This document shows positions 32,663 to 63,090 of a stretch of DNA of 64,000 nucleotides, in pieces. The DNA comes from Kitasatospora sp. SUK 42. GTDB lineage: Bacteria; Actinomycetota; Actinomycetes; Streptomycetales; Streptomycetaceae. Under the pieces are notes generated by a model. That model saw nothing but the letters and a program-made list of their open reading frames with translations, was not told where the DNA came from and ran no database searches. Made by a program: the position numbers and the translations under genes. Position 1 is the stretch's first letter. Each line of letters opens with the position of its first letter. The stretch lies in contig NZ_LFMD02000005.1 in the NCBI RefSeq assembly GCF_015776785.2, positions 266,733 through 330,732 on the forward strand, in the 5' to 3' direction.

Positions 32663-32734
32663 CGGGCCCGCAATTTCGCAGACTCGTCGCCACAGCCATG
32701 CCCCCGGCGAACACGAGAGCACTGGAGGTGCCAC

Positions 32735-33904: not shown

Positions 33905-33945
33905 CCGATCAGCCGCGGCAGCAGCCGAATAAGGAGCCAACCGTC

Positions 33946-34716: not shown

Positions 34717-34780
34717 GGCCCTCCGGCCCGCCCTGCGGCCCGCACGCCCGAACCCCCCAGTCCCAGTGAGGAGCACACCC

Positions 34781-39425: not shown

Positions 39426-39683
39426 TCAGGCGATCGGGACGCCCTTGTCCCGAAGCAGCGCGACCGTCTTCTCGATGGATCCGGCCTCGACGATCTCGTG
39501 GTCCTCCAGGGCGATTCCGTACTGCCGGGTGAGGATCACGGCGAGTTCGACGAGGTCGAGGGAGTCGAGCTCCATCGTCTCGAAGGAGGCGGTGATGTCG
39601 ATGTCGCCCGCGGGGATCTCGAACTTCTCGGCCATGATCGTGGCGATGTGGTCGGCGATCGTGCTCTCGGCGAGGGCGGTCAT
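39426..39683 (-). CDS. Acyl carrier protein
   Basis: This 85-residue ACP has the phosphopantetheine-attachment motif ELDSLDLVEL (Ser near residue 41). ATG 39683 has AAGGTGGA upstream. It is the last gene of the run DsbA-like, LuxE-like, LuxC-like, KASIII, ACP on the minus strand. It could carry the malonyl or acyl group used by the KASIII, or the aryl group activated by the LuxE-like ligase. It is discrete rather than part of a PKS or NRPS, so acyl transfer must happen in trans. Confidence 0.93.
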   Translation of the reverse strand: MTALAESTIADHIATIMAEKFEIPAGDIDITASFETMELDSLDLVELAVILTRQYGIALEDHEIVEAGSIEKTVALLRDKGVPIA

Positions 39684-39690
39684 GGGGTCC

Positions 39691-39795
39691 ACCTTTCGGT
39701 TCGGTTCGGCTCGGTTGCGGTCGGTTCGGGGCGGTGGCGGTGGCGGTTCGGGGCCGTGGCCGTTCGGGGCGGCGTCGGTTCGGGCCGGCGTCAGT
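39691..39795. repeat. Low-complexity GGTTCGG repeat region
   Basis: Degenerate copies of cggttcgg and ggcggt repeat through the spacer between the KASIII and ACP genes (for example cggttcggttcggctcgg). It is not coding on either strand with normal codon bias. Confidence 0.65.
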
Positions 39796-40822
39796 TCGGC
39801 GCGATGTCCGGCCACACCAGGGCCGTCGAGCCCCAGGCCAGCCCGCCGCCGAAGGCGGTGAGCAGCACGCGCTCGCCCGGGTTCAGGTCCCCGGCGGCGG
39901 CCGCGTCGGCGAGGGCCAGCGGGATGGACGCGGCGGAGGTGTTGCCGACGCGGTCCAGGTTCACCACGGCGCGCTCGCGGGCGATCTCCAGGTGGTCGGC
40001 CACCGCGTGCAGGATGCGCACGTTGGCCTGGTGGCCGACCAGGCGGTCGACGGTGGCGCTGGGCCAGCCGAGCCGCTCCAGCAGCGCGCCGGAGGAGTCG
40101 CCCATGCGGGTCACCGCCTGGGCGAACACCCGCTTGCCCTGCATGGTGAAGTAGCAGTCCTCGGAGTCGAACGGGTTGCCGCCCGCCCGCTGCCGGGAGC
40201 CGCCGCCCGGGATGGTGATCAGGTCGTGCTGCTCGCCGTCGCTGCCCAGGTCGAAGCCGAGCAGCGCGCCGGGCTCGTCGGCGCGGCCGGCCTCCAGGAC
40301 CACGGCGCCGGCGCCGTCCCCGAAGATCACCGCGGTGTTGCGGTCGGTCGGGTCGAGGATGCCGGAGTAGGTCTCGGCGCCGATCACCAGCACCCGCCGG
40401 GCGACTCCGGTGAGGATCAGCCCCGCCGCGTTGGCGAGGGCGTACACGAAGCCGGCGCACACGGCGGCCACGTCGTAGGCGGGCACGTGGCCGAGGCCGA
40501 GCCGGGCTGCGACCCAGGGCGCGGTCGCCGGGCAGGGGTGGTCCGGCGTGGTGGTGGCGAGGACGACCGCGTCCACGCCGTCCACGCCCGCCGACTTCAG
40601 GGCCCTGGCCCCGGCCTCGACGGCGAGGTCGCCGGTGGCCGTACCGGGCTCCACCCAGTACCGCTGACGGATGCCGGTACGGGTGCGGATCCACTCGTCG
40701 CTGGTGTCGAGCCGCTGGGACAGCTCCTCGTTGCTGACCGCTCTGGGCGGCAGGTAGGTGCCGAGGCCCTTGAGGACGGCGGCGGGCCGCGCGCCGGCTT
40801 CGGGTGTCCGTGGGTCGGTCAT
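39791..40822 (-). CDS. 3-oxoacyl-ACP synthase III (FabH-like) with intact Cys-His-Asn triad
   Basis: This 343-residue protein has the nucleophile in AAVCAGFVYAL, His in VGHQANVRI and Asn in GNTSAAS, plus FGGGLAWGS at the end. It should condense an acyl- or aroyl-CoA with malonyl-ACP, or transfer the acyl group to another nucleophile. PqsD-like enzymes do this with anthraniloyl groups, which makes an anthranilate-type starter conceivable here. ATG 40822 lies 20 bp after the LuxC-like stop, within the same operon, and the ACP gene follows. Confidence 0.9.
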   Translation of the reverse strand: MTDPRTPEAGARPAAVLKGLGTYLPPRAVSNEELSQRLDTSDEWIRTRTGIRQRYWVEPGTATGDLAVEAGARALKSAGVDGVDAVVLATTTPDHPCPATAPWVAARLGLGHVPAYDVAAVCAGFVYALANAAGLILTGVARRVLVIGAETYSGILDPTDRNTAVIFGDGAGAVVLEAGRADEPGALLGFDLGSDGEQHDLITIPGGGSRQRAGGNPFDSEDCYFTMQGKRVFAQAVTRMGDSSGALLERLGWPSATVDRLVGHQANVRILHAVADHLEIARERAVVNLDRVGNTSAASIPLALADAAAAGDLNPGERVLLTAFGGGLAWGSTALVWPDIAPN

Positions 40823-40842: not shown

Positions 40843-42228
40843 TCAGCCGCGGATGACGGTCTTGGTCCGCATCAGGAACTCGCCGAGGTAGCCGTCGTGC
40901 GGCACACCGCGGTCCATCCAGTGCGTGGGGTGGTCGCCGAGGTACACGTTGGCGACGGTGGGTTCGGTGACCAGCGCGTCGACCAGGTCGGCGTCCCGGT
41001 CCTGGTCGCCGCTGAGGACGCCGAGGACGAGCGTGTCGCGCAGCGCGGCCGTGCCGTCGGCCCGGTTCCAGGGCGCCACCCACACGCAGGGGAAGGGCAG
41101 TTCGACGGTGTGCCAGCCGCCCTTCAGGTCGGGCGCCTCGAAGACGGCCGGGCGCAGCACCGCTCCCCCGCCCGGGAGTTCCTCGACGACGCCGTCGCCG
41201 CCGAGGTGGGCCACGGTGCCCTGGGCGCGCTCCAGCAGGTGGCGCTCCAACGCCCGTGCCCGCTCGACCGGTTGGACGGGCAGCGCGGCCTCCTCGTGCT
41301 CGGCGGGCAGGCTCGGCAGCGCGCCGAGCCGTTCGGCGAGGGCGCGGGCCAGCGGCGCCGGGTCGCCCTCGACGAGGACGGCGGTGGCGTCGACGCACTT
41401 GACGCCGCCGTGGTGGGCGATCGAGTCGACGATCATGTCGAGGTGGGTCTGCCAGTCGGCGCCCTCCGTGACCAGGATCTTGGTCCGGCCGGGGCCCTGG
41501 ACCAGGACGGTGGGGTCGGCGGCGTACTTGCGCACGACGTCGTCACCGCCGTAGACGAGGGCCAGGTCGGCGCCCTGCAGCACCTCGTCGGCCGTCGCGT
41601 GGTCGGTCGGCAGCAGCACCACGTGGTCGTCGCCGAACCCGGCCGCGCGCAGCGCCGACACCAGGCGGTGCGGGGTGAACGGCTCCCGGCGCGAGGGCCG
41701 GATCGCGACCCGGTAGCCGAGGGCGAGGGCCTCCAGCCACAGGGCGTGCGGGGCGGGGTGGTTGCCGGCCGCGTTCACCGCGAGGACCTCGCCGCGCCGG
41801 GTCCACACCGCGGCGCCGGTCCGGGTGCGCGGGTCCCGCCAGTCGAGCACCGCGCCGCCGGGCAGGGCGCCGTACGCGCCGGCCAGGGCGCGCTGGGCGG
41901 AGTCGGCGATCTCGTCGGCGGCGGAGCGCACGGCGGGCAGCGGGATGCCGGAGACCCTGGCCACGGTCCGCTCGTACTCCGCGTACGTCAGCCCTTCCAC
42001 GGTGTCGTCGCGGAACACCCGTCCGGCCTCGGCGAGCGCGGCCAGTCGCCGCTCCAGCGGCAGCGGGGTCGCCCGGTGCAGGGCCGCGAGCGCGCGGGTG
42101 ACGAACAGCCTCGGGGTGAGGCTGAGTTCGGCGACGGGTGTGCCGGCGCCGTCGGTGACGGTCTCGCGCTTGCGGGCGCGGTACGGGCCCGAGGGGCCCA
42201 GGGCGTCCAGGAGGCGGGGGTCGGTCAT
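40843..42228 (-). CDS. LuxC-like acyl reductase (GriC-like), aldehyde dehydrogenase fold
   Basis: This 461-residue protein of the aldehyde dehydrogenase superfamily has VLAVNAAGNHPAPHALWLEAL as cofactor-binding region and the catalytic Cys in HHGGVKCVDATAVLV near residue 275. With the LuxE-like ligase encoded immediately upstream (start and stop codons overlap by one base) it forms a pair like GriC/GriD of Streptomyces griseus. That pair is reported to reduce 3-amino-4-hydroxybenzoate to the aldehyde. Here the likely acid is 3-hydroxyanthranilate or a derivative. A fatty-acid reductase function, as in bioluminescence, is the alternative. Confidence 0.82.
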   Translation of the reverse strand: MTDPRLLDALGPSGPYRARKRETVTDGAGTPVAELSLTPRLFVTRALAALHRATPLPLERRLAALAEAGRVFRDDTVEGLTYAEYERTVARVSGIPLPAVRSAADEIADSAQRALAGAYGALPGGAVLDWRDPRTRTGAAVWTRRGEVLAVNAAGNHPAPHALWLEALALGYRVAIRPSRREPFTPHRLVSALRAAGFGDDHVVLLPTDHATADEVLQGADLALVYGGDDVVRKYAADPTVLVQGPGRTKILVTEGADWQTHLDMIVDSIAHHGGVKCVDATAVLVEGDPAPLARALAERLGALPSLPAEHEEAALPVQPVERARALERHLLERAQGTVAHLGGDGVVEELPGGGAVLRPAVFEAPDLKGGWHTVELPFPCVWVAPWNRADGTAALRDTLVLGVLSGDQDRDADLVDALVTEPTVANVYLGDHPTHWMDRGVPHDGYLGEFLMRTKTVIRG

Positions 42229-43325
42229 CAGTAGACCCCCTCGATGACCTTCTCGTCGTCGAACTCCGGCACGGGCGCGATGTCCGCGACGGAGTCGCCG
42301 ACCTGGCCGGGCAGCGGGCGGATCCGGGTGCCGAAGTCCCGCTCCAGGTTGTTCGGCAGGAACAGGCTCTTGCCGACGTAGTGCATGACGACCCGGCCGC
42401 GCTCGCCGTACTCGACCGGCCGGCGCTCCTGGAGGTCGATGACGTTGTACGTCATGTACGGCGAGAAGGGGTCGTAGACGCAGGGCTCGTCGTCGGTGAG
42501 GCCGGGGCGCTCGGTGACGTGGCCGAGCGTCATGGTGTTGCCGAAGCCGCTGCACAGCACGGCGTCCGGGAACAGCTCGGTGCGGTACAGGTTGCGGGTG
42601 TCCGGGTCGAGCTGGGTGCCCACCCACATGATGGCCCGCACCTTCTTCCGCACCAGGTCGACCAGTTCGTCGCGGCGGCACAGCCGCTCCAGGACGGGCG
42701 GGGTGAGCATCAGGACGCCGATGTCCTGGGAGCGCAGCGGGTGCTGGAGCTGGTCGATCAGGTGCTCGGTGTACAGCTCGGCCTCGGTCTGCTCGCCCCG
42801 GGCGATGATCTTCTTCACCCAGCGCGGGTCGACGTCGACGCTGAAGGAGAGCCCGCCGCGCCCGGCCACCAGCTGCTGGAAGGAGGCGCCGACCATGTGC
42901 GGCCCGGACGGGATGGCCATCAGCCAGTTCACGTCGCGCGGCACGCCGTGCGCGTCCAGCTGGGCGTTGCTGTGGGCCAGCAGCAGGTCGAGCCACTCCT
43001 GGAGCATGACGACGCGCTTGGGCGCACCGGTGGTGCCGCCGCTGTCGAAGACGCCGACGACCTTCGGCCGGGGCCCGTAGCCGCGCGGGATCAGGTCCTC
43101 GGCGCGCACGTCCCGCAGCTCGTTGGCGAGGTTCGGGAAGAGCTTCAGGTCGTCGAAGCTGCGGATGTCGGTGAGCGGGTCGAACTCCAGCCGGTCGGCG
43201 CGCTCCAGCCAGAACGGCGCGCCGGTCTCCTCGGAGAAGTGCCAGCGGATCGCGGCACGGAGGAATTCCTCGGGGTCGGGAGTGACACCGTAGGGGAGTT
43301 CGAGAATGGGGTCTGCGGCGGACAA
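42228..43325 (-). CDS. LuxE-like acyl-protein synthetase / aryl adenylating enzyme (GriD-like)
   Basis: This 365-residue protein is a short AMP-forming ligase of the LuxE/phenylacetate-CoA-ligase group. It has the phosphate-binding loop VFDSGGTTGAPKRVV near 105, a WLMAIPSGPHMVGASFQQLV substrate region, an LCSGFGNTM segment in the adenylate-binding position, and a shortened C-terminus. It should activate a carboxylate as an adenylate and pass it to the LuxC-like reductase. ATG 43325 lies after a 15-bp tandem repeat that separates it from the DsbA-like gene. Confidence 0.82.
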   Translation of the reverse strand: MSAADPILELPYGVTPDPEEFLRAAIRWHFSEETGAPFWLERADRLEFDPLTDIRSFDDLKLFPNLANELRDVRAEDLIPRGYGPRPKVVGVFDSGGTTGAPKRVVMLQEWLDLLLAHSNAQLDAHGVPRDVNWLMAIPSGPHMVGASFQQLVAGRGGLSFSVDVDPRWVKKIIARGEQTEAELYTEHLIDQLQHPLRSQDIGVLMLTPPVLERLCRRDELVDLVRKKVRAIMWVGTQLDPDTRNLYRTELFPDAVLCSGFGNTMTLGHVTERPGLTDDEPCVYDPFSPYMTYNVIDLQERRPVEYGERGRVVMHYVGKSLFLPNNLERDFGTRIRPLPGQVGDSVADIAPVPEFDDEKVIEGVY

Positions 43326-43351: not shown

Positions 43352-43404
43352 CGGATCGGCGCGGAGCGGATCAGCGCGGAGCGGATCGGCGCGAAACGGA
43401 TCAG
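43352..43404. repeat. 15-bp tandem repeat, 3.5 copies
   Basis: The unit cggatcggcgcggag is repeated at 43352, 43367 and 43382 with one to three changes, plus a half unit at 43397. It fills the spacer between two genes of one operon and runs into the stop codon of the DsbA-like gene. Confidence 0.85.
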
Positions 43405-44132
43405 CCGGCCTGGGTCGTGGCGCCGGGTGCCACCTCGTCGAGGAGTTCCTCGGCCCAGTCCCGTGAATGGGAGACGAAGTTCGGGAATCCGCCCTCGTAG
43501 GGATTGCCCGTCCACCGGAAGACGGCTCCCGGGTTGTGCACGTCGGTGCCGGCGGCGGTGAACAGGTGCGGGCTGCCCTGCACCCTGGGGCCGCGGGCGA
43601 CGGCGAGGTCCCGGTGGATCGCCGCGCGTGCGGTGCCGCGTTCCAGGGCCTCGGCCAGCGCCGCGCCGTCGACCAGCGGGCACTCGGCGGCGACGGCGAG
43701 GATCTCCGCGGTGATGCCGATGCACCGGCCGCGGCCGTAGAAGGCGTGCCGCAGCGCGGTGTCCAGCTGGTCGCTCGCGGGCAGCCCGCCGACCGCCTCC
43801 GCCTTCGCGGCCTGCACCGCCTCCATGGCCGGCAGGGTGGTGACCGGGTAGCGCCAGTCGGGCCCGGGCCACTGGCGCCAGCCCAGCTCGGGCACCTTGG
43901 CGCCGATCGCCACCACCTCGGCGTCGATGATCGGCTTGGGCGTGGGCTCGGAGTTGAACAGCTCCAGCGGGAAGGCCCGGTGGTCGACCAGGAGGTGCGC
44001 GCCGCGCTCCCGGGCGGCGGCGTGCAGGGTGTGCAGGGCCAGGGTCGCCCAGGGGCAGCCGATGTCCGACCAGACGGTCACGACGGCCGGGTCGGACGAG
44101 TACAGGGGCTCCGTGTCGGCCTGCTGGGTCAT
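43401..44132 (-). CDS. DsbA/FrnE-like thioredoxin-fold protein
   Basis: This 243-residue protein has the thioredoxin start VWSDIGCPWATLALHTL, with CPWA in place of the CxxC of disulfide oxidoreductases. A long helical insert follows (AMEAVQAAKAEAVGGLPASDQLDTALRHAFYGRGRCIG) and the cis-Pro loop is VQGSPHLF. With one cysteine it may be a thiol-dependent isomerase or transferase, like 2-hydroxychromene-2-carboxylate isomerases, rather than a redox enzyme. ATG 44132 has GGAGGAAA upstream. It is the first gene of the operon containing the LuxE/LuxC/KASIII/ACP genes, under a promoter with two copies of the cluster motif. Confidence 0.78.
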   Translation of the reverse strand: MTQQADTEPLYSSDPAVVTVWSDIGCPWATLALHTLHAAARERGAHLLVDHRAFPLELFNSEPTPKPIIDAEVVAIGAKVPELGWRQWPGPDWRYPVTTLPAMEAVQAAKAEAVGGLPASDQLDTALRHAFYGRGRCIGITAEILAVAAECPLVDGAALAEALERGTARAAIHRDLAVARGPRVQGSPHLFTAAGTDVHNPGAVFRWTGNPYEGGFPNFVSHSRDWAEELLDEVAPGATTQAG

Positions 44133-44220
44133 GAGGGCGTTTCCTCCGGGCTGCGCGAACGGGACGGATCTGGCCGAATTCTGGCCACGGCCGCGTGATC
44201 GTCCGCAGTGCGCGCGCAGG

Positions 44221-44249
44221 ACTCTGTCAGGCACCGGTGACTTCGTCAG
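44221..44249 (-). promoter_or_regulatory. Two cluster promoter motifs upstream of the DsbA-LuxE-LuxC-KASIII-ACP operon
   Basis: On the minus strand CTGACGAAGT (44249-44240) and CTGACAGAGT (44230-44221) are 19 bases apart, 89-117 bp upstream of ATG 44132. The second block is poorly conserved here. Confidence 0.65.
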
Positions 44250-44264
44250 ACGGATTTCGGCTAC

Positions 44265-44295
44265 CTGACGAAGTGAACGGCCGCCGATCGACGGT
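44265..44295 (+). promoter_or_regulatory. Cluster promoter motif upstream of the MFS gene
   Basis: CTGACGAAGT (44265-44274) is followed after 12 bases by ATCGACGGT, a partial second block, 53-83 bp upstream of ATG 44348. It forms a head-to-head pair with the divergent copy at 44240-44249, separated by 15 bases. Confidence 0.65.
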
Positions 44296-44347
44296 CCCGC
44301 GCGCCCTGCCGGAGCATGACTCGCACTCGCACGAAAGGGATTCCAAG

Positions 44348-45793
44348 ATGTCCGTGCTGGATGCGGAAAACGTCGCCGTTTCCGCGGCCCCGCCCAGAAT
44401 GACCTCCCACCAGCGGGCCGTGCTCGTCCTGCTGCTCAGCTCGACCTTCCTTTTGGCGGCGGATCTTCCGCTGCTCAATGTCGCCATCCCGGTGATCGGT
44501 TCGGGCCTCGGCTTCTCGGTCGGGAACCTGCACTGGATCACCACCGCGTTCGCGCTCACCTCCGCCGGCTTCACGCTGCTGTTCGGGCGCATCGCCGACC
44601 TCTACGGGCGGCGCCTGGTGTTCGTCGGCGGCATCGGGCTCCTGGTGGCCTCGTCCGTGCTGGGCGCGGTCGCGCAGAGCCCGTCGGTGCTGATCGCCGC
44701 CCGCGTCCTCCAGGGCGTCGCCACCGCGATGGCGACCCCGGCCGCGCTCGCGCTGATCACCACCTCGTTCCCCGACGGCCCGCTGCGCGCCAAGGCGCTG
44801 GGCGTCAACGGCACCATGATCTCGCTCGGCTTCACCGTCGGCGCGGTGGCCGGCGGCCTGCTCACCGGGCTGCTCAGCTGGCGCTGGTCGTTCCTGCTCA
44901 ACGTGCCGATCGGCCTGGCCATCGTCGGCTTCGCGCCGGTGCTGCTGAAGGAGAGCCGCTCCGCCGAGCGCCCCCGGATGGACGTCCCCGGCGCCGTCAC
45001 GGTGAGCGCGGGCCTGGTCGCCCTGGTCTACGGTGTGTCCCGCAGCCCCGACCTGGGCTGGGGCAGCCCGCTGGTGCTCGGCTGCGTCCTCGCCGGTGCC
45101 GCGCTGCTCGTCGCCTTCTACCGCATCGAGCTGCGCGCCGAGACGCCGCTGGCCTCGGTCGGGATCCTGCGCCGGCCGACGGTCCGCTGGGGCAACTTCG
45201 GCGGCCTCGCCCTGATCACCATGCAGACCGCGGCGATCTTCCTGGTCACCCTCTACCTCCAGGAGGTGCACGGCTACTCGGCCCTCGCCACCGGGATCGC
45301 CTTCTCGGCGCTGGGCGTCTCCGCCTTCCTCGGCGGCGCCTTCGCCCCCCGCATCATCGGCCGGTACGGCAACCGCGCCACCCTCGTCGCCGGCCTGGTG
45401 TTCCAGGTCGTCGGCCCGCTGGGCGTGTTCCTGGTCACCGGCAGCGGCGGCGGCATCGCCCTCGTCCTGGCGGCGATGACCGTGGGCGCCTTCGGCCACG
45501 TCATGGGCGTGGTGGCGTACATGGTCACCGGGACCACCGGCCTGCCCAACGACGAGCAGGGCCTGGCCACCGGCCTGGCCACGATGACCCAGCAGGTGGC
45601 CCTCGCCATGGGCACCCCCGTGCTCAGCGCCGTCGCCAGCAGCCGGATCCACGCGCTGGAGGGGAACGGCTCGCACGCCGACGCCGTCCTGTCCGGCGTC
45701 CGGCTCGCCCTCGGCGTGGACACCCTCGTCGTGGCGGCGGCCGCCGTGCTCCTCTGGTTCTGCCTCGGCCGCGCCCTGCGCCACACCCGCTGA
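44348..45793 (+). CDS. MFS drug:H+ antiporter (DHA2 type, about 14 helices)
   Basis: This 481-residue membrane protein has LNVAIPVIGSGLGFS in helix 1, the motif-A region GRIADLYGRRLVF, RVLQGVATAMATPAALALI (motif B) and GAVAGGLLTGLLSWRWSFLLNVPIG (motif C, typical of antiporters). The spacing fits 14 transmembrane segments. ATG 44348 has AAGGGA upstream. It is probably the efflux and self-resistance pump of the cluster product. The gene is divergent from the LuxE/LuxC operon and followed 49 bp later by the aldo/keto reductase. Confidence 0.92.
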   Translation: MSVLDAENVAVSAAPPRMTSHQRAVLVLLLSSTFLLAADLPLLNVAIPVIGSGLGFSVGNLHWITTAFALTSAGFTLLFGRIADLYGRRLVFVGGIGLLVASSVLGAVAQSPSVLIAARVLQGVATAMATPAALALITTSFPDGPLRAKALGVNGTMISLGFTVGAVAGGLLTGLLSWRWSFLLNVPIGLAIVGFAPVLLKESRSAERPRMDVPGAVTVSAGLVALVYGVSRSPDLGWGSPLVLGCVLAGAALLVAFYRIELRAETPLASVGILRRPTVRWGNFGGLALITMQTAAIFLVTLYLQEVHGYSALATGIAFSALGVSAFLGGAFAPRIIGRYGNRATLVAGLVFQVVGPLGVFLVTGSGGGIALVLAAMTVGAFGHVMGVVAYMVTGTTGLPNDEQGLATGLATMTQQVALAMGTPVLSAVASSRIHALEGNGSHADAVLSGVRLALGVDTLVVAAAAVLLWFCLGRALRHTR

Positions 45794-45842: not shown

Positions 45843-46787
45843 ATGACCACGCAATCCGCCGTGCACGCCTCCGCCGCCGGCACCATCACCCTCGGCGGCG
45901 ACCTCACCATCAACCGCATGGGCTACGGCGCGATGCAGCTGGCGGGCCCCGGCGTCTACGGCCCCCCGAAGGACCGCGAGACCGCCCTCGCCGTGCTGCG
46001 CCGGGCGCGCGAGCTCGGGGTCAACCACATCGACACCAGCGACTACTACGGCCCGTACGTGGTGAACGAGCTCATCCGCGAGGCCCTGCACCCCTACGAC
46101 GACGACCTGGTGATCGTCACCAAGATCGGCGCCAAGCGCACCCCGGACATGGAGTGGCCGGCCGCGCTGTCCCCGCAGGAGCTGCGCGAGGCGGTCCACT
46201 CCAACCTGCGCCACCTCGGCCGCGACCACCTCGACGTCGTCAACCTCCGCATCGTCGCCGAGGCCGGCGGCATCGGCCCGGACGAGTCGATCGCCGAACC
46301 CTTCGGCGCGCTCGCCGAGTTGCGCGAGCAGGGCCTCGTCCGGCACCTGGGCGTCAGCAACGTCACCCCGGCGCAGTTCGCCGAGGCGCGCTCCATCGCC
46401 CCCGTGGTGTGCGTGCAGAACGAGTACAACGTGGTGCGCCGGGACGACGAGGCCACCCTGCGGGCCTGCGAGGAGGCCGGCATCGCGTACATGTCCTTCT
46501 TCCCGCTCGGCACGTACACCCTGCTGGGCGCCGAGAAGACCCCGGGCAAGGACGCCAAGGTCCCGCTGAACGTGCCGCTGGCCGCCAAGGCCGTCGACGT
46601 GGTGGCCGGGCGCCACGGCGTCACCGCCTACCAGGTGGCGCTGGCCTGGCTGCTGCACCGCTCCCCCAACCTGGTCTGCATCCCGGGCACGTCCTCGGTG
46701 GCGCACCTGGAGGAGAACATCGCCGCGGCCGCGCTGCGGCTGACCGACGAGGACCTCGCGGAGCTGGAGACCATGCGCGCCGCCTGA
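45843..46787 (+). CDS. Aldo/keto reductase
   Basis: This 314-residue TIM-barrel reductase has catalytic Asp and Tyr in NHIDTSDYYGPY, Lys in IVTKIGAKR, and a cofactor-binding C-terminus with IPGTSSVAHLEENIAAA. It reduces aldehydes or ketones with NADPH. It could act on the aldehyde made by the LuxC/LuxE pair, giving a hydroxymethyl group, or protect the cell from it. ATG 45843 has GAGGAG upstream. It is co-transcribed with the MFS gene and followed by a strong terminator. Confidence 0.9.
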   Translation: MTTQSAVHASAAGTITLGGDLTINRMGYGAMQLAGPGVYGPPKDRETALAVLRRARELGVNHIDTSDYYGPYVVNELIREALHPYDDDLVIVTKIGAKRTPDMEWPAALSPQELREAVHSNLRHLGRDHLDVVNLRIVAEAGGIGPDESIAEPFGALAELREQGLVRHLGVSNVTPAQFAEARSIAPVVCVQNEYNVVRRDDEATLRACEEAGIAYMSFFPLGTYTLLGAEKTPGKDAKVPLNVPLAAKAVDVVAGRHGVTAYQVALAWLLHRSPNLVCIPGTSSVAHLEENIAAAALRLTDEDLAELETMRAA

Positions 46788-46854: not shown

Positions 46855-47910
46855 TCAGTCCGGGAGCGGGACGGGGCGCTCGTCGATCTCCAGGACCGCG
46901 CTGGTCCAGTTGAAGCCGAGCCCGATGCCGCACAGCAGCACCCGCTGGCCCGCCTCCAGCCGGCCCGCGCGCATCAGGTGCTCCAGGCCGCCGAACTGGT
47001 CGGTGGCGCCGACGTGGCCGGTCTCCCGGGCGAACTCGTACGGCGTCCTCGCGGCGTCCAGCTGGAGCGGCGTGAGCACCTCCTGGCGCAGCATCGTGCG
47101 GCCGAAGTTCGGGAAGACCAGGTGGTCGATGTCGGCGGGCCGCACCCCGGCCTCCTCGGCGGCGGTCTCCACCGAGCGGATCAGCGCCTGGTTCATCAGC
47201 TTGAAGACCTCGGAGATCCGACCGCCGTGCTCCTCGTCGGCGAAGGTCTGCATCCGCTGGATGAGGTTGATCGGGTACGCCTCGGTGTCGGTGGTGTCGG
47301 GGAACGCCATGAACGACAGCCCGGCGCGCTGGGCGCGCTCCAGGTCGGGCCGGCTCTCCGTGACGACGGAGGCGATCCGGGCGAAGCCGCCGGTGCGGGA
47401 GAGCACCGCGGCGCTCGCGCCGTCGCCGAACACCAGGCCCGGGTAGGTGCGCCAGCGGTTCCACACCGGCATCACGAAGCGGTCCGAGGCGGTGATCATC
47501 GCGGCCTGCCGCTCGGGGCGCGCGGCGAGGAAGGCGGCGGCCAGCTCGATCGCCGCCATCGCGCCGTTGGAGTGCTGCTTGACCTCCAGGGACAGCCCGT
47601 TGCCGGCCAGCACGTGGTGCTGGAGGTACGAGGCGACGTTCCAGCCGTCCAGGCCGCAGAAGGCGCCCGTGGCGTGCAGCAGCAGCCCGAACTCCCCGGC
47701 GTCCAGGCCGGAGTGGCGAAGCGCCAGGGCGCCGGCGCGCACCGCCATCTCCGGCTGGGTGTCGTCGTCGCCGGCGACGGTCGCGGCGAGCTGGCCGGAG
47801 CGCCGCTGGGTGGCCTCGTCGTACAGGCCGGCCTCGATGGCCTCGTCGACGGACACCGGCTTGGGGTACCAGGCCCCCACCCCGGCGATGTACAGGTTGT
47901 CGTGGCGCAT
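46855..47910 (-). CDS. KASIII-family protein with altered active site, possible acyltransferase
   Basis: This 351-residue thiolase-fold protein begins LYIAGVGAWYPKPVSVDEA. At the usual Cys position it reads KQHSNGAMAAIELA (Ser). At the usual His position LVFPNFGRTML has Pro/Asn, and at the Asn position GHVGATDQFGG has His. Decarboxylative condensation by the normal triad is therefore unlikely. Related KASIII-like proteins transfer acyl groups to oxygen or nitrogen; BomK in A33853 biosynthesis forms an amide on 3-hydroxyanthranilate, and DpsC uses a Ser. A similar acyl transfer to the aminophenol is a reasonable proposal. The start is ATG 47910, GAGAGGAG upstream. Confidence 0.8.
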   Translation of the reverse strand: MRHDNLYIAGVGAWYPKPVSVDEAIEAGLYDEATQRRSGQLAATVAGDDDTQPEMAVRAGALALRHSGLDAGEFGLLLHATGAFCGLDGWNVASYLQHHVLAGNGLSLEVKQHSNGAMAAIELAAAFLAARPERQAAMITASDRFVMPVWNRWRTYPGLVFGDGASAAVLSRTGGFARIASVVTESRPDLERAQRAGLSFMAFPDTTDTEAYPINLIQRMQTFADEEHGGRISEVFKLMNQALIRSVETAAEEAGVRPADIDHLVFPNFGRTMLRQEVLTPLQLDAARTPYEFARETGHVGATDQFGGLEHLMRAGRLEAGQRVLLCGIGLGFNWTSAVLEIDERPVPLPD

Positions 47911-47999: not shown

Positions 48000-49217
48000 T
48001 CAGGCCGTGGGCCGGATCACCGGGACGGGCCAGGGGGCGCGGTCGGTGCCGACCTCGCCGCCGTGCAGCCACTGGACCTTCTCGTAGAGGTCCTCCTCGG
48101 ACAGCGCCCGCAGCATGGCGTTGCGGGCCTCGGCCGCCTCGCCCGCGGGGTGGTACAGCCGGCGCCCCATCTCGCGCGCCAGCAGCTGGATGGCGGCGGT
48201 ACGCTCGCGTCGCTCGGCGTTGAACTTCTCGAAGCGCTGGGCGAAGTCGGCCGGCTCGGTGCCGATCAGCTCGCCGAGCACCACGGCGTCCTCCACGGCC
48301 TGGCAGGCGCCCTGGGCGGCGTACTGGAGCATGGGGTGGGCGGCGTCGCCGACCAGGACGACCCGGCCGTCCGTCCAGCCCTCCACCGGGTCACGGTCGC
48401 ACAGCACCCAGGACTTCCAGTCCCGGCCCAGCTCCAGCAGGCGCCGGGCGGTGCTGCCGAGGCCCGGGAACTCGTTCAGGACGTGCGCGCGCTCCACCGG
48501 CAGGCCGAGCACCGCCTCGGTGGCGCCGTCGTCGCGGGTGGCGGCCAGGTTGAGGAACTCCCCGCTGCCGATCGGGTAGTGGACGAAGTGCCACTTGGGC
48601 CCCGCCCACAGCGTCACGGTGTTCCAGCGCAGCTCCTCGGGCACCTCCTCCATGGGGATGACCGAGCGGTAGATGGTGTGCCCGGACACCTTCGGGTAGC
48701 CGTCGCCCACGAGCTGCTTGCGGACGAAGGAGTTGATGCCGTCGGCGCCGATCAGCGCGTCGGCGCGGACGCGTTCGCCGTTGGCCAGCTGGACGGTCAC
48801 GCCGTCGGCGTCCTGCTCGTAGCCCTCCACGGAGCAGTCCACGCGCAGTTCCACGGAGGGCTCGGCGCGGCAGGCGGCCAGCAGCGGCTCGTACAGGTCG
48901 ATGCGGTGCACCACGGCGTACGGGTTGCCGAAGCGGGCCCGGTAGGCGCCGGTGAGCGGCATCGAGACGACCTTCTCGTCGGTCGTGCCGTCCATGAAGC
49001 GGAGTTCGTCGATGTGCACGGCGCGCTCCCGGACCGCGTCGCCGACGCCGAGCTGGTCCAGCGCCTGGAAGGCGTTCGGCCCGAGCTGGATGCCGGCACC
49101 GATCTCGGTGAAGCAGTCGCGGCGCTCCAGCACCACCACGTCGTGCCCGCGCTTGGCGAGGCTCAGCGCGGTCGCCAGGCCGCCTATTCCGCCGCCGGCG
49201 ATTGCTGTCTTCGGCAT
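48000..49217 (-). CDS. FAD-dependent aromatic monooxygenase (salicylate / 3-hydroxybenzoate hydroxylase type)
   Basis: This 405-residue group A flavoprotein hydroxylase has the Rossmann motif AIAGGGIGGLATALSLAKRG, the DG motif region ALIGADGINSFVRK near 165 and the second FAD motif GDAAHPMLQYAAQGACQAVED near 290. It should hydroxylate an aromatic ring next to a phenol or amine. With salicylate-hydroxylase-like members this can go with decarboxylation, which would convert a 3-hydroxyanthranilate-type acid to an aminohydroquinone. ATG 49217 has AGGAAAGGGA upstream, and a full cluster promoter signature lies 60-90 bp upstream. Confidence 0.9.
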   Translation of the reverse strand: MPKTAIAGGGIGGLATALSLAKRGHDVVVLERRDCFTEIGAGIQLGPNAFQALDQLGVGDAVRERAVHIDELRFMDGTTDEKVVSMPLTGAYRARFGNPYAVVHRIDLYEPLLAACRAEPSVELRVDCSVEGYEQDADGVTVQLANGERVRADALIGADGINSFVRKQLVGDGYPKVSGHTIYRSVIPMEEVPEELRWNTVTLWAGPKWHFVHYPIGSGEFLNLAATRDDGATEAVLGLPVERAHVLNEFPGLGSTARRLLELGRDWKSWVLCDRDPVEGWTDGRVVLVGDAAHPMLQYAAQGACQAVEDAVVLGELIGTEPADFAQRFEKFNAERRERTAAIQLLAREMGRRLYHPAGEAAEARNAMLRALSEEDLYEKVQWLHGGEVGTDRAPWPVPVIRPTA

Positions 49218-50486: not shown

Positions 50487-51101
50487 TCAGGCCGTCGCGA
50501 GCCCGCGCTTGAGCGCCCCGGCGATCTCCACGGCGCGGCGGGTCTGGTGCTCGATCGAGGCCAGGGTGGCCTCGTCGGCGGTCGCGTTGTCGTAGGAGAC
50601 GTGGCCGGTGCCGTACGGGTTGCCGGTCTTGACGTGGAACTGGACCGGGTCGGTGTAGCCGGGAGCGACGATGATCGCGCCCCAGTGGTAGAAGGTGTTG
50701 TTCAGCGCGAGCAGGGTGCTCTCCTGGCCGCCGTGGGTCTGCGAGGTGGAGGTGAACGAGGAGACCACCTTGTTCGCCAGCTTGCCCTGCGCCCACAGGC
50801 CGCCGGCGGTGTCGATGAACTGCTTGAGCTGCGCGGCCGGCAGGCCGAAGCGGGTCGGCGTGCCGAAGAGGATCACGTCGGCCCAGTCCAGGTCGTCCAG
50901 CGAGGCGGCCTCGTTGTCCTTGACCTCCGCGTGGTGGGCGGCCCAGGCCGGGTTGGAGTCGATGGCGGCCTGCGGAGCCAGCTCGGCCACCTTGCGCAGA
51001 CGCACCTCGGCACCGGCCTTCTGCGCCGCCTCGGCGGCGGCCGCGGCCAGGGTGTGGACGTGGCCGGTGGAGGAGTAGTAGATGACTGCGACGTTCGTCA
51101 T
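50487..51101 (-). CDS. wrbA: WrbA-type NAD(P)H:quinone oxidoreductase (flavodoxin-like)
   Basis: This 204-residue flavodoxin-fold protein has the FMN phosphate loop IYYSSTGHVHTLA, FGTPTRFGLPAAQLKQFID and SFTSTSQTHGGQEST. It reduces quinones by two electrons, which in this context would keep an aminohydroquinone or quinone-imine intermediate reduced, or protect the host. ATG 51101 is the start; a longer in-frame extension lacks a ribosome-binding site. The promoter carries two direct copies of the cluster motif. The DUF6081-like gene follows. Confidence 0.9.
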   Translation of the reverse strand: MTNVAVIYYSSTGHVHTLAAAAAEAAQKAGAEVRLRKVAELAPQAAIDSNPAWAAHHAEVKDNEAASLDDLDWADVILFGTPTRFGLPAAQLKQFIDTAGGLWAQGKLANKVVSSFTSTSQTHGGQESTLLALNNTFYHWGAIIVAPGYTDPVQFHVKTGNPYGTGHVSYDNATADEATLASIEHQTRRAVEIAGALKRGLATA

Positions 51102-51167
51102 TTCGAGCGTCCCTTTCGTGTTTTTGGAACCGGTGACCGGGGAAAAGATTTCCGCAGTCACCGGAAT

Positions 51168-51247: not shown

Positions 51248-52771
51248 TCAGGAGACCCGGAAATTGGCCATCATCCCCATCGACGCGTGGTCGAAGAGAT
51301 GGCAGTGGTAGAGGTAGGTGCCGCGGTACCCGGTGAAGGTGGCCTGGATCTTCACCGTCTCGCCGGCCAGGATGCTCACGGTGTCCTTGAGCCCCGTCTC
51401 GAAGCCCTCGGTGACCGGCTGCCCGTTGCGCTCCAGGACGCGGAACATCACCAGGTGGATGTGGAAGTTGTGCGGGGCGAGCTTGTTGGTGTTGGTGACC
51501 GTCCACACCTCGGTGTCGCCGTAGGCGATGTCGGTGTCGATGCGGTCGTGGTCGTACGTCAGGCCGTTGATGTAGGCCCCCGCGTCGGGCCGGCCGTCCT
51601 CGTCCATGCTCAGCGTGAAGCTGCGGCTCACGGTGGCGGGTGGCAGGGCCGGCAGGGTGCGCAGGGTGCTCGGCACCGAACTGCCGTCGGTGGCGGTGCG
51701 GGTGACGTCGAAGCGCATGACCTTGCCGACGTGCTCGACCGGGCCGGGCGGCATGCCGTTCTCCAGCACCACCTGGCTGCCCACCGGGTAGCGCGAGAAG
51801 TCGACGACGATGTCGGCCCGTTCGCCGGGCGACAGCCGCACCACCGTCGCCTGACAGGGCGCGGCGAGCAGGCCGCCGTCGCCGCCGATGATCGTGAACT
51901 CCGAGCCGTCGGACAGCTTCAGGTCGAAGAAGCGCCCGTTGCTCTGGTTGAAGATCCGCAGCCGGTACTTGCGGGCCGCGACCTGGAAGTACGGCCAGGG
52001 CTTGCCGTTGGCCAGGACGACGTTGCGGTTGGCCCAGTCGTCCATGGCGTACACGAACTGCCCCGCCTGGTCGAAGCGCGCCTCGCGCAGCGCGATCGAC
52101 ACGTCGTACTGCCCCGACGGCAGCGGCAGTTGCTGCTCGGTGTCGTCGGTGAGGAGGTAGTAGCCGGACAGTCCGCGGTAGACGTGCTCGGACTCCTGGT
52201 GGTGGGCGTGGTCGTGGAACCACAGGTTGGCGTGCGACTGCTGGTTCGGGTAGGTGTACGTCTTCTTCCCGCCCGGCATGATCAGGTCCATCGGCCCGCC
52301 GTCGCTGGACTCGGGGACGTGCGCCCCGTGCAGGTGCACGGAGACGGGCTGGCCGAGGGCGTTGGTCTGTTCGACGACCACCCTCTGGCCTGATCTGGCT
52401 CTGATGAGCGGGCCGGGGAACTGGCCGTTGTAGGTCCGCACGGTGGTCGCCGGCATGCCGGGCAGGACCGCCGCGGCGACCTCCTTCATGGTCATCCGGT
52501 AGTAGCTGGTCGTGCCCGAGACCGCGTACGGGGCCAGCACCGGCGCGAGCGGCATCGGGACCGCGAACTTGGCGATGCCGCCCGGGTCGAGGTCCGGCGC
52601 CGCCGTCGCACCGGTCATGGGCGCCCCGGAGCCCATGGCGCCCATGGAGTCCGGACCGCCCTCGACCGCGCCGGCGGCCGCGGGCTCCAGGGCCGAGATC
52701 CCGAGCCCCGCCAGCCCGAGACCGCCGGAGACGGCGACACCGGACACGAGAAAAGAACGTCGTGCTATCAC
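51248..52771 (-). CDS. Tat-exported multicopper oxidase (phenoxazinone-synthase/CotA type)
   Basis: This 507-residue protein begins with a twin-arginine signal (ARRSFLVSGVAVSGGLGL) and a Met/Gly-rich linker (SMGAMGSGAPM). The copper sites are complete: HLHGAH, WFHDHAHH, HNFHIHLVMF and the type 1 region HCHLFDHASMGMM. Three-domain oxidases of this kind include phenoxazinone synthase, which couples two o-aminophenols, and CotA-type laccases. In a cluster making 3-hydroxyanthranilate, extracellular oxidation of an o-aminophenol to a phenoxazinone or quinone-imine is the most economical role. A general laccase is the alternative. The start is ATG 52771; a variant cluster motif lies 84-93 bp upstream. 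Confidence 0.9.
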   Translation of the reverse strand: MIARRSFLVSGVAVSGGLGLAGLGISALEPAAAGAVEGGPDSMGAMGSGAPMTGATAAPDLDPGGIAKFAVPMPLAPVLAPYAVSGTTSYYRMTMKEVAAAVLPGMPATTVRTYNGQFPGPLIRARSGQRVVVEQTNALGQPVSVHLHGAHVPESSDGGPMDLIMPGGKKTYTYPNQQSHANLWFHDHAHHQESEHVYRGLSGYYLLTDDTEQQLPLPSGQYDVSIALREARFDQAGQFVYAMDDWANRNVVLANGKPWPYFQVAARKYRLRIFNQSNGRFFDLKLSDGSEFTIIGGDGGLLAAPCQATVVRLSPGERADIVVDFSRYPVGSQVVLENGMPPGPVEHVGKVMRFDVTRTATDGSSVPSTLRTLPALPPATVSRSFTLSMDEDGRPDAGAYINGLTYDHDRIDTDIAYGDTEVWTVTNTNKLAPHNFHIHLVMFRVLERNGQPVTEGFETGLKDTVSILAGETVKIQATFTGYRGTYLYHCHLFDHASMGMMANFRVS

Positions 52772-53237: not shown

Positions 53238-53268
53238 CTGACACAGTGGCCGGGATCTCGTTGTCGCC
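53238..53268 (+). promoter_or_regulatory. Cluster promoter signature upstream of aroA-aroC
   Basis: CTGACACAGT (53238-53247) is followed after 12 bases by GTTGTCGCC (53260-53268), matching seven of nine positions of the second block, 88 bp before ATG 53348. Confidence 0.55.
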
Positions 53269-53347
53269 GCCGCCTCCCGGTGGCGAGCCTGGCGGAACCC
53301 GGGCCGGCCCCGGCTCGCCGTCCGCGGCGCCGTACGAGAGGACTCCG

Positions 53348-54607
53348 ATGAAGGCACGCATCCCGGGATCGAAGAGCATCACCAACCGGGCCCTCGTCCT
53401 CGCCGCCGCCGCGCGCGGCACCAGCCGGCTGTCCGCGCCGCTGGTCAGCGACGACACCGTCGCCTTCCGCGACGCGCTCACCGCGCTCGGCGTCCGGGTC
53501 ACGACCGCGCCCGACGACGCGAGCTGGACGGTGACCGGCCTCGGGCGGGGGCCGCACGGCGGCGGCCGGGTCTGGTGCGCGGACGCCGGCACGGCCGCCC
53601 GCTTCCTCCCCCCGTTCGCCGCCGCCGGCACCGGGCGGTACGTCTTCGACGGCACCGACCAGCTCCGCGCCCGGCCGCTGTCGCCGCTCACGGCGGCGCT
53701 CACCCGGCTCGGCGCCCGGATCACCACCGACTCCGGCGCCGCGCTCCCCCTGACGGTCGACGCCGAGGGCCTCGCGGGCGGTGAACTCCCCCTCCCCTCC
53801 GGGCTGTCCAGCCAGTTCCTGTCCGGCCTGCTGATGTCCGCGCCCCTGATGCGGGCCCCGCTGCGGGTCCGGGCCGAGGAACTGGTCAGCCGCCCGTACA
53901 TCGACATGACGCTCGCCCTGATGACCCGCTTCGGGGCCCGCACCGACGAGTCCGGCGGCCACATCTCGGTGGACCCGGCGCCCTGCACGGCGACCGACCT
54001 CGCCGTGGAACCGGACGCCTCCACCGCCTCCTACTTCTTCGCGGCCGCCGCGGTCACCGGCCGCGAGATCACCGTCCCCGGCCTGGGCCTCGGCAGCCTC
54101 CAGGGCGACCTCCGCTTCGTCGACGTCCTGCGCGAGGCCGGCGCGACGGTCCGCACGACCACCGAGGGGACGACCGTCATCGGCGGCCCGACGCTGCGCG
54201 GCGGCTTCGACGTCGACATGGGCGACATCTCGGACACCTTCATGACCCTCGCCGCGATCGCCCCGCTCGCCGACGCGCCCATCACGATCCGGGGCATCGC
54301 CCACGCGCGGCTGAAGGAGTCCGACCGCATCGCCGCGGTCGACGAGAACCTGCGGGCGCTGGGCGTCACCACGGAGGTCGGCCACGACCGCATCACCGTC
54401 GTCCCCGGCCCCACCCGGCCGGCCCGGATCGCCTGCCGCCGCGACCACCGCATCGCCATGGCCTTCTCCGTCCTCGGCCTGCGCGCCCCCGGCATCGACC
54501 TCGACGACCCCGGCTGCGTCTCCAAGACCTTCCCCGGCTTCCACACCGAGCTGACCAGGCTCTTTCCGACCCCGTACAACCCCACTGGCCTTGAGGAGCA
54601 CCGTTGA
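53348..54607 (+). CDS. aroA: 3-phosphoshikimate 1-carboxyvinyltransferase (EPSP synthase)
   Basis: This 419-residue protein has the phosphate- and shikimate-binding start [16 protein letters not shown], the DAGTAARF loop (corresponding to NAGTAMR), [20 protein letters not shown] and [13 protein letters not shown] near the end. It makes 5-enolpyruvylshikimate 3-phosphate. ATG 53348 has GAGAGGA upstream; a longer frame from 53246 lacks EPSP synthase similarity. It is translationally coupled to chorismate synthase. Its place beside specialised-metabolism genes, with a copy of the cluster promoter motif, suggests a dedicated second copy boosting chorismate. Confidence 0.94.
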
Positions 54608-55788
54608 GCAGGTTGCGCTGGCTGACCGCGGGAGAGTCCCACGGCCCCGCACTCGTCGCGACGCTGGAGGGCCTGCCCGCCGGCGTGCCGATCACCACCG
54701 AGGTCGTGGCCGAGGCGCTGGCACGGCGCCGTCTCGGCCACGGCCGCGGGGCGCGGATGAAGTTCGAACAGGACGAGGTCACCTTCCTCGGCGGGGTCCG
54801 GCACGGCCTGACGCTGGGTTCGCCGGTGGCCGTGCTGGTCGGCAACACCGAGTGGCCCAAGTGGGAGCAGGTGATGGCCGCCGACCCGGTGGACGGGGAG
54901 GTGCTGGCCGGGCTCGCCCGCAACGCGCCCCTGACCCGCCCCCGGCCCGGCCACGCCGACCTCGCCGGCATGCAGAAGTACGGCTTCGACGAGGCCCGGC
55001 CGGTGCTGGAGCGTGCCTCGGCCCGGGAGACGGCCGCGCGGGTCGCACTGGGCGCGGTGGCGCGTTCCTACCTGAAGGAGACGGCCGGGATCGAGATCGT
55101 CTCCCACGTGGTCGAACTCGCCGCGGCCAGGGCCCCGTACGGGGTGTACCCGACCCCCGGGGACGTCGAGCGGCTGGACGCCGACCCGGTGCGCTGCCTG
55201 GACGCGGACGCCTCGAAGGCGATGGTCGCCGAGATCGACCGGGCCCACCAGGACGGCGACACCCTCGGCGGCGTGGTCGAGGTCCTCGCCTACGGCGTGC
55301 CGGTGGGGCTCGGCTCCCACGTCCACTGGGACCGCCGGCTCGACGCCCGGCTGGCCGCCGCGCTGATGGGCATCCAGGCGATCAAGGGCGTCGAGGTCGG
55401 CGACGGCTTCGAACTGGCCCGGGTGCCCGGCTCGCAGGCCCACGACGAGATCGTCACCACCCCCGGGGGCATCCGGCGCACCACCGGCCGCGCCGGCGGC
55501 ACCGAGGGCGGCCTGTCCACGGGCGAACCGCTGCGCGTGCGGGCGGCGATGAAGCCGATCGCCACGGTGCCCCGGGCGCTGCGGACCGTGGACGTCACCA
55601 CGGGCGAGTCGGCACAGGCCCACCACCAGCGCTCCGACGTGTGCGCCGTACCGGCGGCCGGCATCGTCGCGGAGGCGATGGTCGCCCTGGTACTGGCCGA
55701 CGCGGTGGCGGAGAAGTTCGGCGGCGACAGCGTGGCCGAGACCCGCCGCAACGTGCGGTCCTACCTCGCCGCCCTGGCGATCCGCTGA
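54604..55788 (+). CDS. aroC: Chorismate synthase
   Basis: This 394-residue protein has the FMN and substrate motifs [77 protein letters not shown] and [17 protein letters not shown]. It converts EPSP to chorismate using reduced FMN. The start is TTG 54604, overlapping the stop of the EPSP synthase gene (TTGA). A strong terminator follows six bases after the stop. In most streptomycetes the housekeeping gene lies with aroK/aroB, so this is probably an additional copy. Confidence 0.95.
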
Positions 55789-55833: not shown

Positions 55834-57636
55834 CTAGGCGTCGGCTCCGGCAGGTCCCGCCGTGCCGGCCGCGTGCAGCGCGCCGAGTTCGGCGGCGATG
55901 GCGTCGAGCCGGTGCCGGGGCATCAGTCCGAGGGCGACGGCGGACATCTGAACCGGTGAGAGAGCGCCGAGGATGGCACCGATGGCCCCGGTCATCAACT
56001 GGTCGCCCAGGTGGCGCCGCAGGACCTGACCGGCCTGCGGGTCGGCGAACAGCTCACGCAGAGGGGTGTTCGCTCCGAGCGGGTGGTCCGCGTAGTCGGC
56101 GGGCAGGGCGGGCGGCTCCAGGGCGGCCAGGGCCTGGGGCTGCTGGCGGCGGGCGAGCAGGTGCTCCTCGGTCACCTTCCCGTCCAGGGGCAGGCCGAGG
56201 CGGACGTACTGCTCCTCCGGGGCGTCGGCCGCGCGCAGCTGGTCGACCAGCAACTGCGCCATGCGCAGCTCCAGTTCGTCGTCGACGAGGGGGTTCCGCT
56301 GGTCCGGGTCGGTCTCCAGGTCGAAGAGGAGGGTGCCGAAGGCGTACGGGCTGTAGAACGTGAAGCCCGGCACCTTGAGCACCGGGACGCCCTTGGTGAA
56401 GGTGAACGGCGAGGCGAGTTCGGCCCCGCGCAGTTCCTCGGGCCGGAAGCGGCCGCGCATGTGGGTGGGCATCAGGGTGTGCTCGGACAGCGGCCGGTTG
56501 GCGGGCTCCGCAGAGGCCCGCATGTAGACGTGGCGCCCGTCGGTGACGCTGACGTGGCCGCCGAAGGAGCCGAACAGGCCTGCCTCGCGCACGGGCGCGT
56601 CGGTGGCGACGGCCTCGCGCAGCGGCCGGCCCAGCATGTCGGGCGTGCGGTCGACTCCGAAGTACTCCAGCAGGGTGGGGCCGAAGTCGATGGTCTGGAC
56701 GAGGGAGCCGCGCCGCTCGCCGCGCACCCGGCTGCGCGGGTCCCAGACGAACAGCGGGGTGTGGATCGTCTCGTCGTACCAGGGCTGGACGTTCTTGCCC
56801 CACCAGCCGCGCTCGCCGAGCAGCAGGCCGTGGTCGGTGCAGACGATCAGCATGGTGTCGTCCCACAACCGGTGCTCGTCCATGGCGTCCAGGACGCGCC
56901 CGAGCGAGGCGTCGCACATGGACAGCAGGGCCGCGTACTCCAGGCGGCCGTGCTCGACCTGCTCCTCGGTCTCCTGGACCTTCTTGTAGTCCGGCCAGTC
57001 GAAGTGCGGGCCGTCGTAGTCGTGCGGGTAGTGCTCCTTGTGGCGCGCGTAGCTGTAGAACGGCTCGTGCGGGTCGAAGGTCTCGATCTGGAGGAACCAG
57101 TTGTCCTCGGCGTGGTTGGTGGCGATGAACTCCAGTCCCGCGTCGAAGGTGCGGGTCTGGGGGTGGTCGGCCTCGTCGGTGAGGTGCTGCCGGTTCACCC
57201 GGTCCTGGCGGAAGAGTTCGGTGCGCAGCAGCTTGAGGTTCTCGGGGATCTCCGGGTCGGCGACCTGGCCCTTCCAGGGGTCGCCCTCCTGGCCGCGGAA
57301 GAACTCGAAGGTGCGGAAGCGGTGGTGGTAGGTGGCACCGCCGTCCTCCCAGTAGTGCTGGTGATCGGTGGAGAGGTGGGTGTACACCCCGGCCTCCCCG
57401 AGCATCTGCGGTACGGAGTCGTCGAACGGCTCCAGCGGCCCCCAGCTGCGGTGCAGGAAGTTGTAGCGCCCGGTGTGCAGTTCGCGGCGGGCGGGCATGC
57501 AGGGCATCGACCCGGCGTAGCAGGTGTCGAAGGTCGCGGTCCGCTCCGCCAGCCGGGAGAAGTTCGGCGCGTGCACCCACTCCGGACCGCCGTAGGGCGG
57601 CAGGAACCGTCGGTTCAGGCTGTCGAACATCACCAT
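55834..57636 (-). CDS. Sulfatase 1, formylglycine type
   Basis: The protein is about 600 residues. The start has MFDSLNRRFLPPYG (metal ligand Asp) and the maturation motif is CMPARRELHTGR (C-x-P-x-R), so the Cys must be oxidised to formylglycine. Later motifs are TFDPHEPF, CTDHGLLLGERGWWGKN and LFDLETDPDQRNPL. No signal peptide is present, implying a cytoplasmic enzyme. The start is uncertain: ATG 57636 gives a slightly short N-terminus, whereas GGAGG is ideally placed for an ATC codon at 57648 (I/M-K-A-I-M-V-M-F). The substrate, an aryl or sugar sulfate ester, is not predictable. Confidence 0.87.
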   Translation of the reverse strand: MVMFDSLNRRFLPPYGGPEWVHAPNFSRLAERTATFDTCYAGSMPCMPARRELHTGRYNFLHRSWGPLEPFDDSVPQMLGEAGVYTHLSTDHQHYWEDGGATYHHRFRTFEFFRGQEGDPWKGQVADPEIPENLKLLRTELFRQDRVNRQHLTDEADHPQTRTFDAGLEFIATNHAEDNWFLQIETFDPHEPFYSYARHKEHYPHDYDGPHFDWPDYKKVQETEEQVEHGRLEYAALLSMCDASLGRVLDAMDEHRLWDDTMLIVCTDHGLLLGERGWWGKNVQPWYDETIHTPLFVWDPRSRVRGERRGSLVQTIDFGPTLLEYFGVDRTPDMLGRPLREAVATDAPVREAGLFGSFGGHVSVTDGRHVYMRASAEPANRPLSEHTLMPTHMRGRFRPEELRGAELASPFTFTKGVPVLKVPGFTFYSPYAFGTLLFDLETDPDQRNPLVDDELELRMAQLLVDQLRAADAPEEQYVRLGLPLDGKVTEEHLLARRQQPQALAALEPPALPADYADHPLGANTPLRELFADPQAGQVLRRHLGDQLMTGAIGAILGALSPVQMSAVALGLMPRHRLDAIAAELGALHAAGTAGPAGADA

Positions 57637-57749
57637 GATCGCTTTGATGGGGTGCCTCCGTGCTCGTGCCGCTTCATGGTTCGTCGGATTCACCGGGCGG
57701 GAGGGGAGCCGGCCGCCACGGCCCGCCGACGCCCCCACCATCCCTCAAA

Positions 57750-57763
57750 TGGCAGTACTGCCA
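57750..57763. promoter_or_regulatory. Perfect 14-bp palindrome in the AT-rich gap before sulfatase 1
   Basis: TGGCAGTACTGCCA is flanked by aaat on both sides and followed by related half-sites (tgccataactgca). It lies 114 bp upstream of ATG 57636 and 20 bp beyond the stop of sulfatase 2. It is a candidate operator for an internal promoter. Confidence 0.5.
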
Positions 57764-57782
57764 AATGCCATAACTGCAAATG

Positions 57783-59240: not shown

Positions 59241-59250
59241 GTGGTGTTCC

Positions 59251-60624: not shown

Positions 60625-60647
60625 CGTGGACTCCCTTGGTGCAGACG

Positions 60648-62991: not shown

Positions 62992-63027
62992 GGGCGGCAC
63001 CTATGTTCTGAGGAAGATATGCCCCAC

Positions 63028-63056: not shown

Positions 63057-63090
63057 GACTCCCGCCGTGAACTCTTCACCCGCCCGCTCA

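Follow-up and report, generated by a model that had tools for sequence, protein, structure and literature searches.

A probable KASIII-fold acyltransferase with a predicted Ser114-His299-Asp304 triad is encoded at 46855–47910 on the reverse strand of the window, the 64,000-nucleotide stretch of Kitasatospora sp. SUK 42 DNA that was analysed. The gene lies in an uncharacterised antibiotic cluster of the 3-hydroxyanthranilate type, and the enzyme, with a putative donor and a putative acceptor, most likely acylates the product of this cluster. The stop-free ORF codes for 351 amino acids, and its coordinates, strand and frame had been given correctly in the earlier note. The start codon, ATG at 47910, was preceded by an SD-like AGAGGAG sequence and an orthologue was found to start at the same place.

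The 351-residue protein matched the Pfam families ACP_syn_III_C (2e-18) and ACP_syn_III (4e-6). The closest solved structures, all aligned over the full length (about 340 residues) with E values from 1e-63 to 2e-51, were DpsC (1e-63), 9z38, ChlB3 (2e-55), 7vyu and CerJ (2e-51). Canonical FabH proteins gave far weaker matches, with the best E value of 9e-16. The protein fell below the cut-offs of the fabH and KAS3 profiles and was 20–21% identical to two canonical KASIII proteins of its own genome. It shares the thiolase fold and an FGDGASAAVL-type motif with FabH (20% identity), but the Cys-His-Asn triad of canonical FabH is absent and Ser, Asn and His stand at those positions. Full-length homology to DpsC, CerJ and ChlB3 was accompanied by the residues of this type, i.e., Ser or Cys as the nucleophile, His where FabH has Asn, and Asp five residues further on. 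The protein is an ordinary member of the known DpsC/CerJ/Pau29-type acyltransferase family.

To map the catalytic residues, MAFFT was used to align the query with its homologues, with the solved relatives (DpsC, CerJ and ChlB3) and with the two canonical KASIII proteins. Ser114 (47569–47571, reverse strand, as for all residues below), located in the HSNG motif, occupied the nucleophile position and was aligned with DpsC S118, CerJ C116 and ChlB3 C113. His299 (47014–47016) stood in the place of the FabH Asn, aligned with DpsC H297, CerJ H295 and ChlB3 H296, and Asp304 (46999–47001), five residues past it, was aligned with DpsC D302 and ChlB3 D301. The place of the catalytic His of FabH (HQAN) and of DpsC H266 was taken by Asn268 (47107–47109). 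All four motifs pointed out in the earlier note were found in the protein, HSNG holding Ser114, FGDGASAAVL at residues 161–170, PNFG at 267–270 and GHVGAT at 298–303, and its reading of Ser for Cys and His for Asn agreed with the alignment, which put Ser114 at the nucleophilic Cys and His299 at the FabH Asn. The reading of Pro for the catalytic His was off by one, since the Pro of PNFG aligned with the Pro of the FabH 'PHQAN' sequence and Asn268 with the His itself. Nor was there support for the view that all three catalytic positions were simply lost, as it overlooked Asp304, the third member of what appears to be a complete triad of the DpsC/ChlB3/CerJ type. As far as the alignment can tell, Ser, His and Asp are in place and no loss of catalysis is implied.

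The triad published for DpsC is S118-H297-D302 (PMC12664062) and that for ChlB3 is Cys113-His296-Asp301 (PMC9573744), although authors differ on the catalytic set of DpsC, which the latter paper describes as Ser-His-His, not Ser-His-Asp. The mapping reproduced this numbering, together with C116 and H295 of CerJ, which supports the acyltransferase model. An AlphaFold2 model computed from only two sequences had a pLDDT of 44, too poor for the geometry of the triad. The presence of another Cys in the pocket, which according to the earlier note would refute its reading, was also looked at by alignment. Cys85 (47656–47658) was placed in the loop ahead of the conserved cap Trp near the dimer interface, five residues before this Trp and away from the nucleophile position. 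The family has a near-invariant Gln at the position of Cys85, present in 114 of the 128 sequences aligned, with Cys found only in the query and its two orthologues.

In the FastTree analysis, the query grouped with the orthologues from S. curacoi (82% identity) and the G002 genome (67%). Next out were three proteins about 48% identical to it (47–49%), from G498, G532 and G614, with a clade support of 0.97, and past the clade with this sister group the position of the query was poorly resolved. The sister gene in the G614 locus (L137) adjoined a type I PKS (KS-AT-DH-KR-ACP), and the other two sister loci had similarly sized large ORFs at the corresponding position. A multicopper oxidase 60–62% identical to that of the window was found in all three of these loci (L135–L137), the surroundings of which differed. 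The clade of the query is thus small, comprising three orthologues and the sister group, with a type I PKS adjoining in at least one genome. Close orthologues of the gene are rare. G307 was the only one of 393 genomes of its genus with an orthologue of more than 50% identity, and at the class level (394 genomes) only the window's own genome gave a match passing E 1e-70. In G498, the same KASIII-like gene was located near both chromosome ends (L130 and L134), as expected of terminal inverted repeats.

The residues at the catalytic positions were counted in 119 rows from Streptomycetaceae genomes, including the query and, twice, S. curacoi (L026 and L027); the rows were picked by similarity to the query and their proportions differ from those of the whole superfamily. 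Ser was a commoner nucleophile than Cys among these sampled homologues (81 and 37 rows, respectively, with Ala in one), and the position of the FabH His was occupied by His in 49 and Asn in 42 rows. The triad His was present in 116 of the 119 rows and the triad Asp in all of them. The commonest set was Ser-His-His-Asp (47/119), followed by the exact set of the query, Ser-Asn-His-Asp (30/119), which is not unusual among the sampled homologues, about a quarter of them carrying it. Being kept in both orthologues and family-wide, the catalytic pattern is not a product of chance. The replacement of all three FabH catalytic residues might suggest a pseudo-enzyme with no acyl-transfer role, but the chance of this is next to negligible, as no member of the alternative triad is missing and the orthologues keep it as well.

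The KASIII-like gene is surrounded by genes for aromatic and acyl metabolism. Four genes on the forward strand encode a class II DAHP synthase (32654–33904), a dehydrogenase of the 2,3-dihydro-2,3-dihydroxybenzoate type (DhbA; 33901–34716), expected to give 3-hydroxyanthranilate, a PhzD-type isochorismatase (34697–35461) and an anthranilate-synthase-like fusion of component I and amidotransferase of the PhzE/ADIC synthase type (35458–37359). According to established pathways, these four enzymes together are expected to lead to 3-hydroxyanthranilate, and this cassette favours the idea of an aminophenol as the putative acceptor. The following genes of the reverse strand encode an acyl carrier protein (39426–39683; PP-binding, LDSLDL), the candidate acyl donor, which adjoins an orthologue in G002, a canonical FabH-type KASIII with Cys-His-Asn (39791–40822), the candidate source of acyl-ACP, an aldehyde dehydrogenase-family protein (40843–42231; Pfam Aldedh 2e-11, weak matches to betaine aldehyde dehydrogenase), overlapping with the gene of an EhpF-like adenylate-forming protein (42228–43325; EhpF E 1e-82), and a protein with a DsbA-like domain (43401–44234), conserved beside the KASIII genes in G002. 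The EhpF-like protein and the aldehyde dehydrogenase are candidates for an aryl carboxylate reductase, by analogy to GriC/GriD (cited in PMC11429834). The LuxC/LuxE labels considered for 40843–43325 were dropped as the Pfam matches were Aldedh and AMP-binding and the second gene was EhpF-like. An MFS transporter (44195–45793) and an aldo/keto reductase (45843–46787) are encoded on the forward strand. On the other side of the KASIII-like gene, the reverse strand encodes a 3-hydroxybenzoate 6-monooxygenase-like flavoprotein (48000–49217; NCBIfam PRK08163.1, 489 bits with a cut-off of 459), a flavodoxin-fold protein, presumably WrbA-like (50487–51161), and a multicopper oxidase of the bilirubin oxidase/CotA type (51248–52771), followed on the forward strand by EPSP synthase (53246–54607) and chorismate synthase (54604–55788).

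The cluster genes were found in the same order in S. curacoi. In G002, a five-gene group composed of the KASIII-like gene, the canonical KASIII, the ACP, the DsbA-like gene and the transporter was located at 4.51 Mb, and homologues of most other cluster genes at 3.71–3.73 Mb, so the loci are split by about 0.8 Mb (L024 and L152–L154). The co-occurrence of the two gene groups in a single genome supports one shared pathway; it also suggests that the KASIII-like enzyme works together with the canonical KASIII and the ACP.

In the proposed mechanism, His299, held by Asp304, would activate Ser114, which would accept an acyl group from a thioester to give an acyl-O-Ser intermediate. The donor would most likely be the cluster ACP, loaded with an acyl chain made by the neighbouring canonical KASIII. 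The recipient of the acyl group would then be OH or NH2 of the aromatic intermediate of the cluster, which is probably formed from 3-hydroxyanthranilate by hydroxylation para to the OH, or else a further carrier. A 3-hydroxyanthranilate-derived acceptor is proposed tentatively, its chances being put at somewhat below even. The KASIII-like enzyme may serve as a handle for finding the acyl group that decorates the 3-hydroxyanthranilate-type core. DpsC, which self-acylates and passes acyl groups to its ACP (PMC12664062), shows that Ser can work as the nucleophile, and the inactivity of CerJ C116S (PMC9573744) indicates that Ser in a KASIII-like fold needs an adapted site.

DpsC, the daunorubicin priming enzyme, is the closest solved relative of the query (38.8% identity over 335 residues) and shares with it the Ser nucleophile, His297 and Asp302. 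As DpsC is a priming ketosynthase and an ACP is encoded near the KASIII-like gene, the query might also still condense, with Ser114 acylated and His299 alone supporting decarboxylative condensation with malonyl-ACP. This is very unlikely. DpsC keeps His266 for condensation and primes a type II PKS, whereas the corresponding residue is Asn in the query and both orthologues, so the first His of the Cys/Ser-His-His DpsC/CosE type is missing. A canonical Cys-His-Asn KASIII is already encoded in the cluster, and the window genes examined included no recognisable type II KS/CLF pair. The His on which FabH and DpsC rely for decarboxylative condensation is Asn268 in the query, which makes C–C bond formation by the KASIII-like enzyme unlikely. 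With Ser-His-Asp present and the condensation His replaced, a Ser-type acyltransferase of the DpsC kind is a better model than a condensing enzyme, as had been suggested from the sequence before.

ChlB3 and CerJ (33.7% and 36.6% identity, respectively) resemble the query in the fold, the His-Asp pair and the absence of the condensation His (Asn in ChlB3, Val or a gap in CerJ), but both use Cys as the nucleophile. ChlB3 moves 6-methylsalicylate between carriers (PMC9573744), and the type I PKS beside the sister clade in at least one locus would fit a ChlB3-like transfer from the ACP to another ACP rather than to a small molecule. For the query such transfer is rather unlikely, with only one free-standing ACP gene found in the cluster and Ser at the position of the ChlB3 Cys.

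The acyltransferase reading does not extend to BomK, the other model named in the earlier note. BomK, MymG and CbxB are also KASIII-like and belong to clusters built around 3-hydroxyanthranilate (benzoxazoles) or anthranilate (mycemycins), and the DAHP synthase-DhbA-PhzD-PhzE cassette of the window follows the cbxFGHI order (PMC5481532), which would suit an amide synthase of the BomK/CbxB type that couples an aromatic acyl-ACP with 3-hydroxyanthranilate, as in benzoxazole formation. The comparison was made by synteny, with CbxB-like proteins standing in for BomK, the CbxB gene being located next to that of the salicylate synthase CbxA (PMC5481532). In G226, G388 and G149, a KASIII-like gene directly adjoined a salicylate synthase gene; each of these loci contained homologues of PhzE, PhzD and DhbA, and in two of them a homologue of DAHP synthase was detected as well. 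The KASIII-like proteins of these caboxamycin-layout loci (L077, L092 and L116), 33–38% identical to the query, differed from it in the Cys-Gly-His-Asp signature and formed one separate clade in another part of the tree, on the side of ChlB3. Moreover, no salicylate synthase match was found anywhere in the query's genome, and the cluster genes examined did not include an amidohydrolase. The benzoxazole-type reaction is thus a highly improbable alternative, and BomK, judged through the signatures and tree place of the syntenic benzoxazole enzymes, was rejected as the nearest model.

The Ser-Asn-His-Asp set is already known from Pau29 of the paulomycin pathway, compared here by its published description. 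Pau29 has Ser-His-Asp with Asn for the first His, on account of which it was proposed to be an ester-forming acyltransferase and not a condensing enzyme (PMC4425429). The paulomycin cluster pairs it with the same cassette, 3-hydroxybenzoate 6-hydroxylase, PhzE, PhzD, DhbA and DAHP synthase (pau17–pau21; PMC4425429). Pau29 differs in acting in a glycosylated isothiocyanate pathway (paulic acid to D-allose, as proposed), whereas none of the window genes examined was recognised as a sugar gene. A nybomycin-like assignment, considered on account of N-acetoacetylation of aminophenols, was rejected, as nybK of that pathway is an N-acetyltransferase and a comparable acyltransferase of the KASIII-like kind is not named there. 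An epoxyquinone of the LL-C10037 type was also considered; no gene cluster for LL-C10037 was found in the literature searched.

The logic of two KASIII proteins would also allow the cluster to make a quinoline or quinolone, which is chemically reasonable and, in our estimate, distinctly unlikely. Here, a 3-hydroxyanthranilate-type acid would be reduced to a 2-aminobenzaldehyde by the EhpF-like protein and the aldehyde dehydrogenase, with the canonical KASIII supplying a beta-ketoacyl-ACP. N-acylation of the amine would be the task of the Ser-type KASIII-like enzyme. The ring would next close onto the aldehyde, and the quinone state would finally be set by the hydroxylase, the flavodoxin-like protein and the multicopper oxidase.

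Several further features of the region were noticed. Genes for a fused aminodeoxychorismate synthase (29330–31453) and a methyltransferase-fold protein (28497–29279) were conserved in S. curacoi. The region 55834–63956 contained several sulfatase-like ORFs, labelled by reading the sequence, and a likely formylglycine-generating enzyme; these had no tblastn match in the S. curacoi stretch. Another cluster, in the G594 genome (L155–L156), combined the 3-hydroxyanthranilate cassette with a DDE_5 gene, a PucR-type regulator and a 3-hydroxybenzoate-6-hydroxylase-like gene of 69% identity; the KASIII-like gene was absent from the stretch read. The DDE_5 transposase-like gene of the window (25056–26417) had homologues in the matching clusters of S. 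curacoi (90%), G002 (44%) and G594 (41%), which is odd for a passing insertion sequence, and it possibly encodes a domesticated protein.
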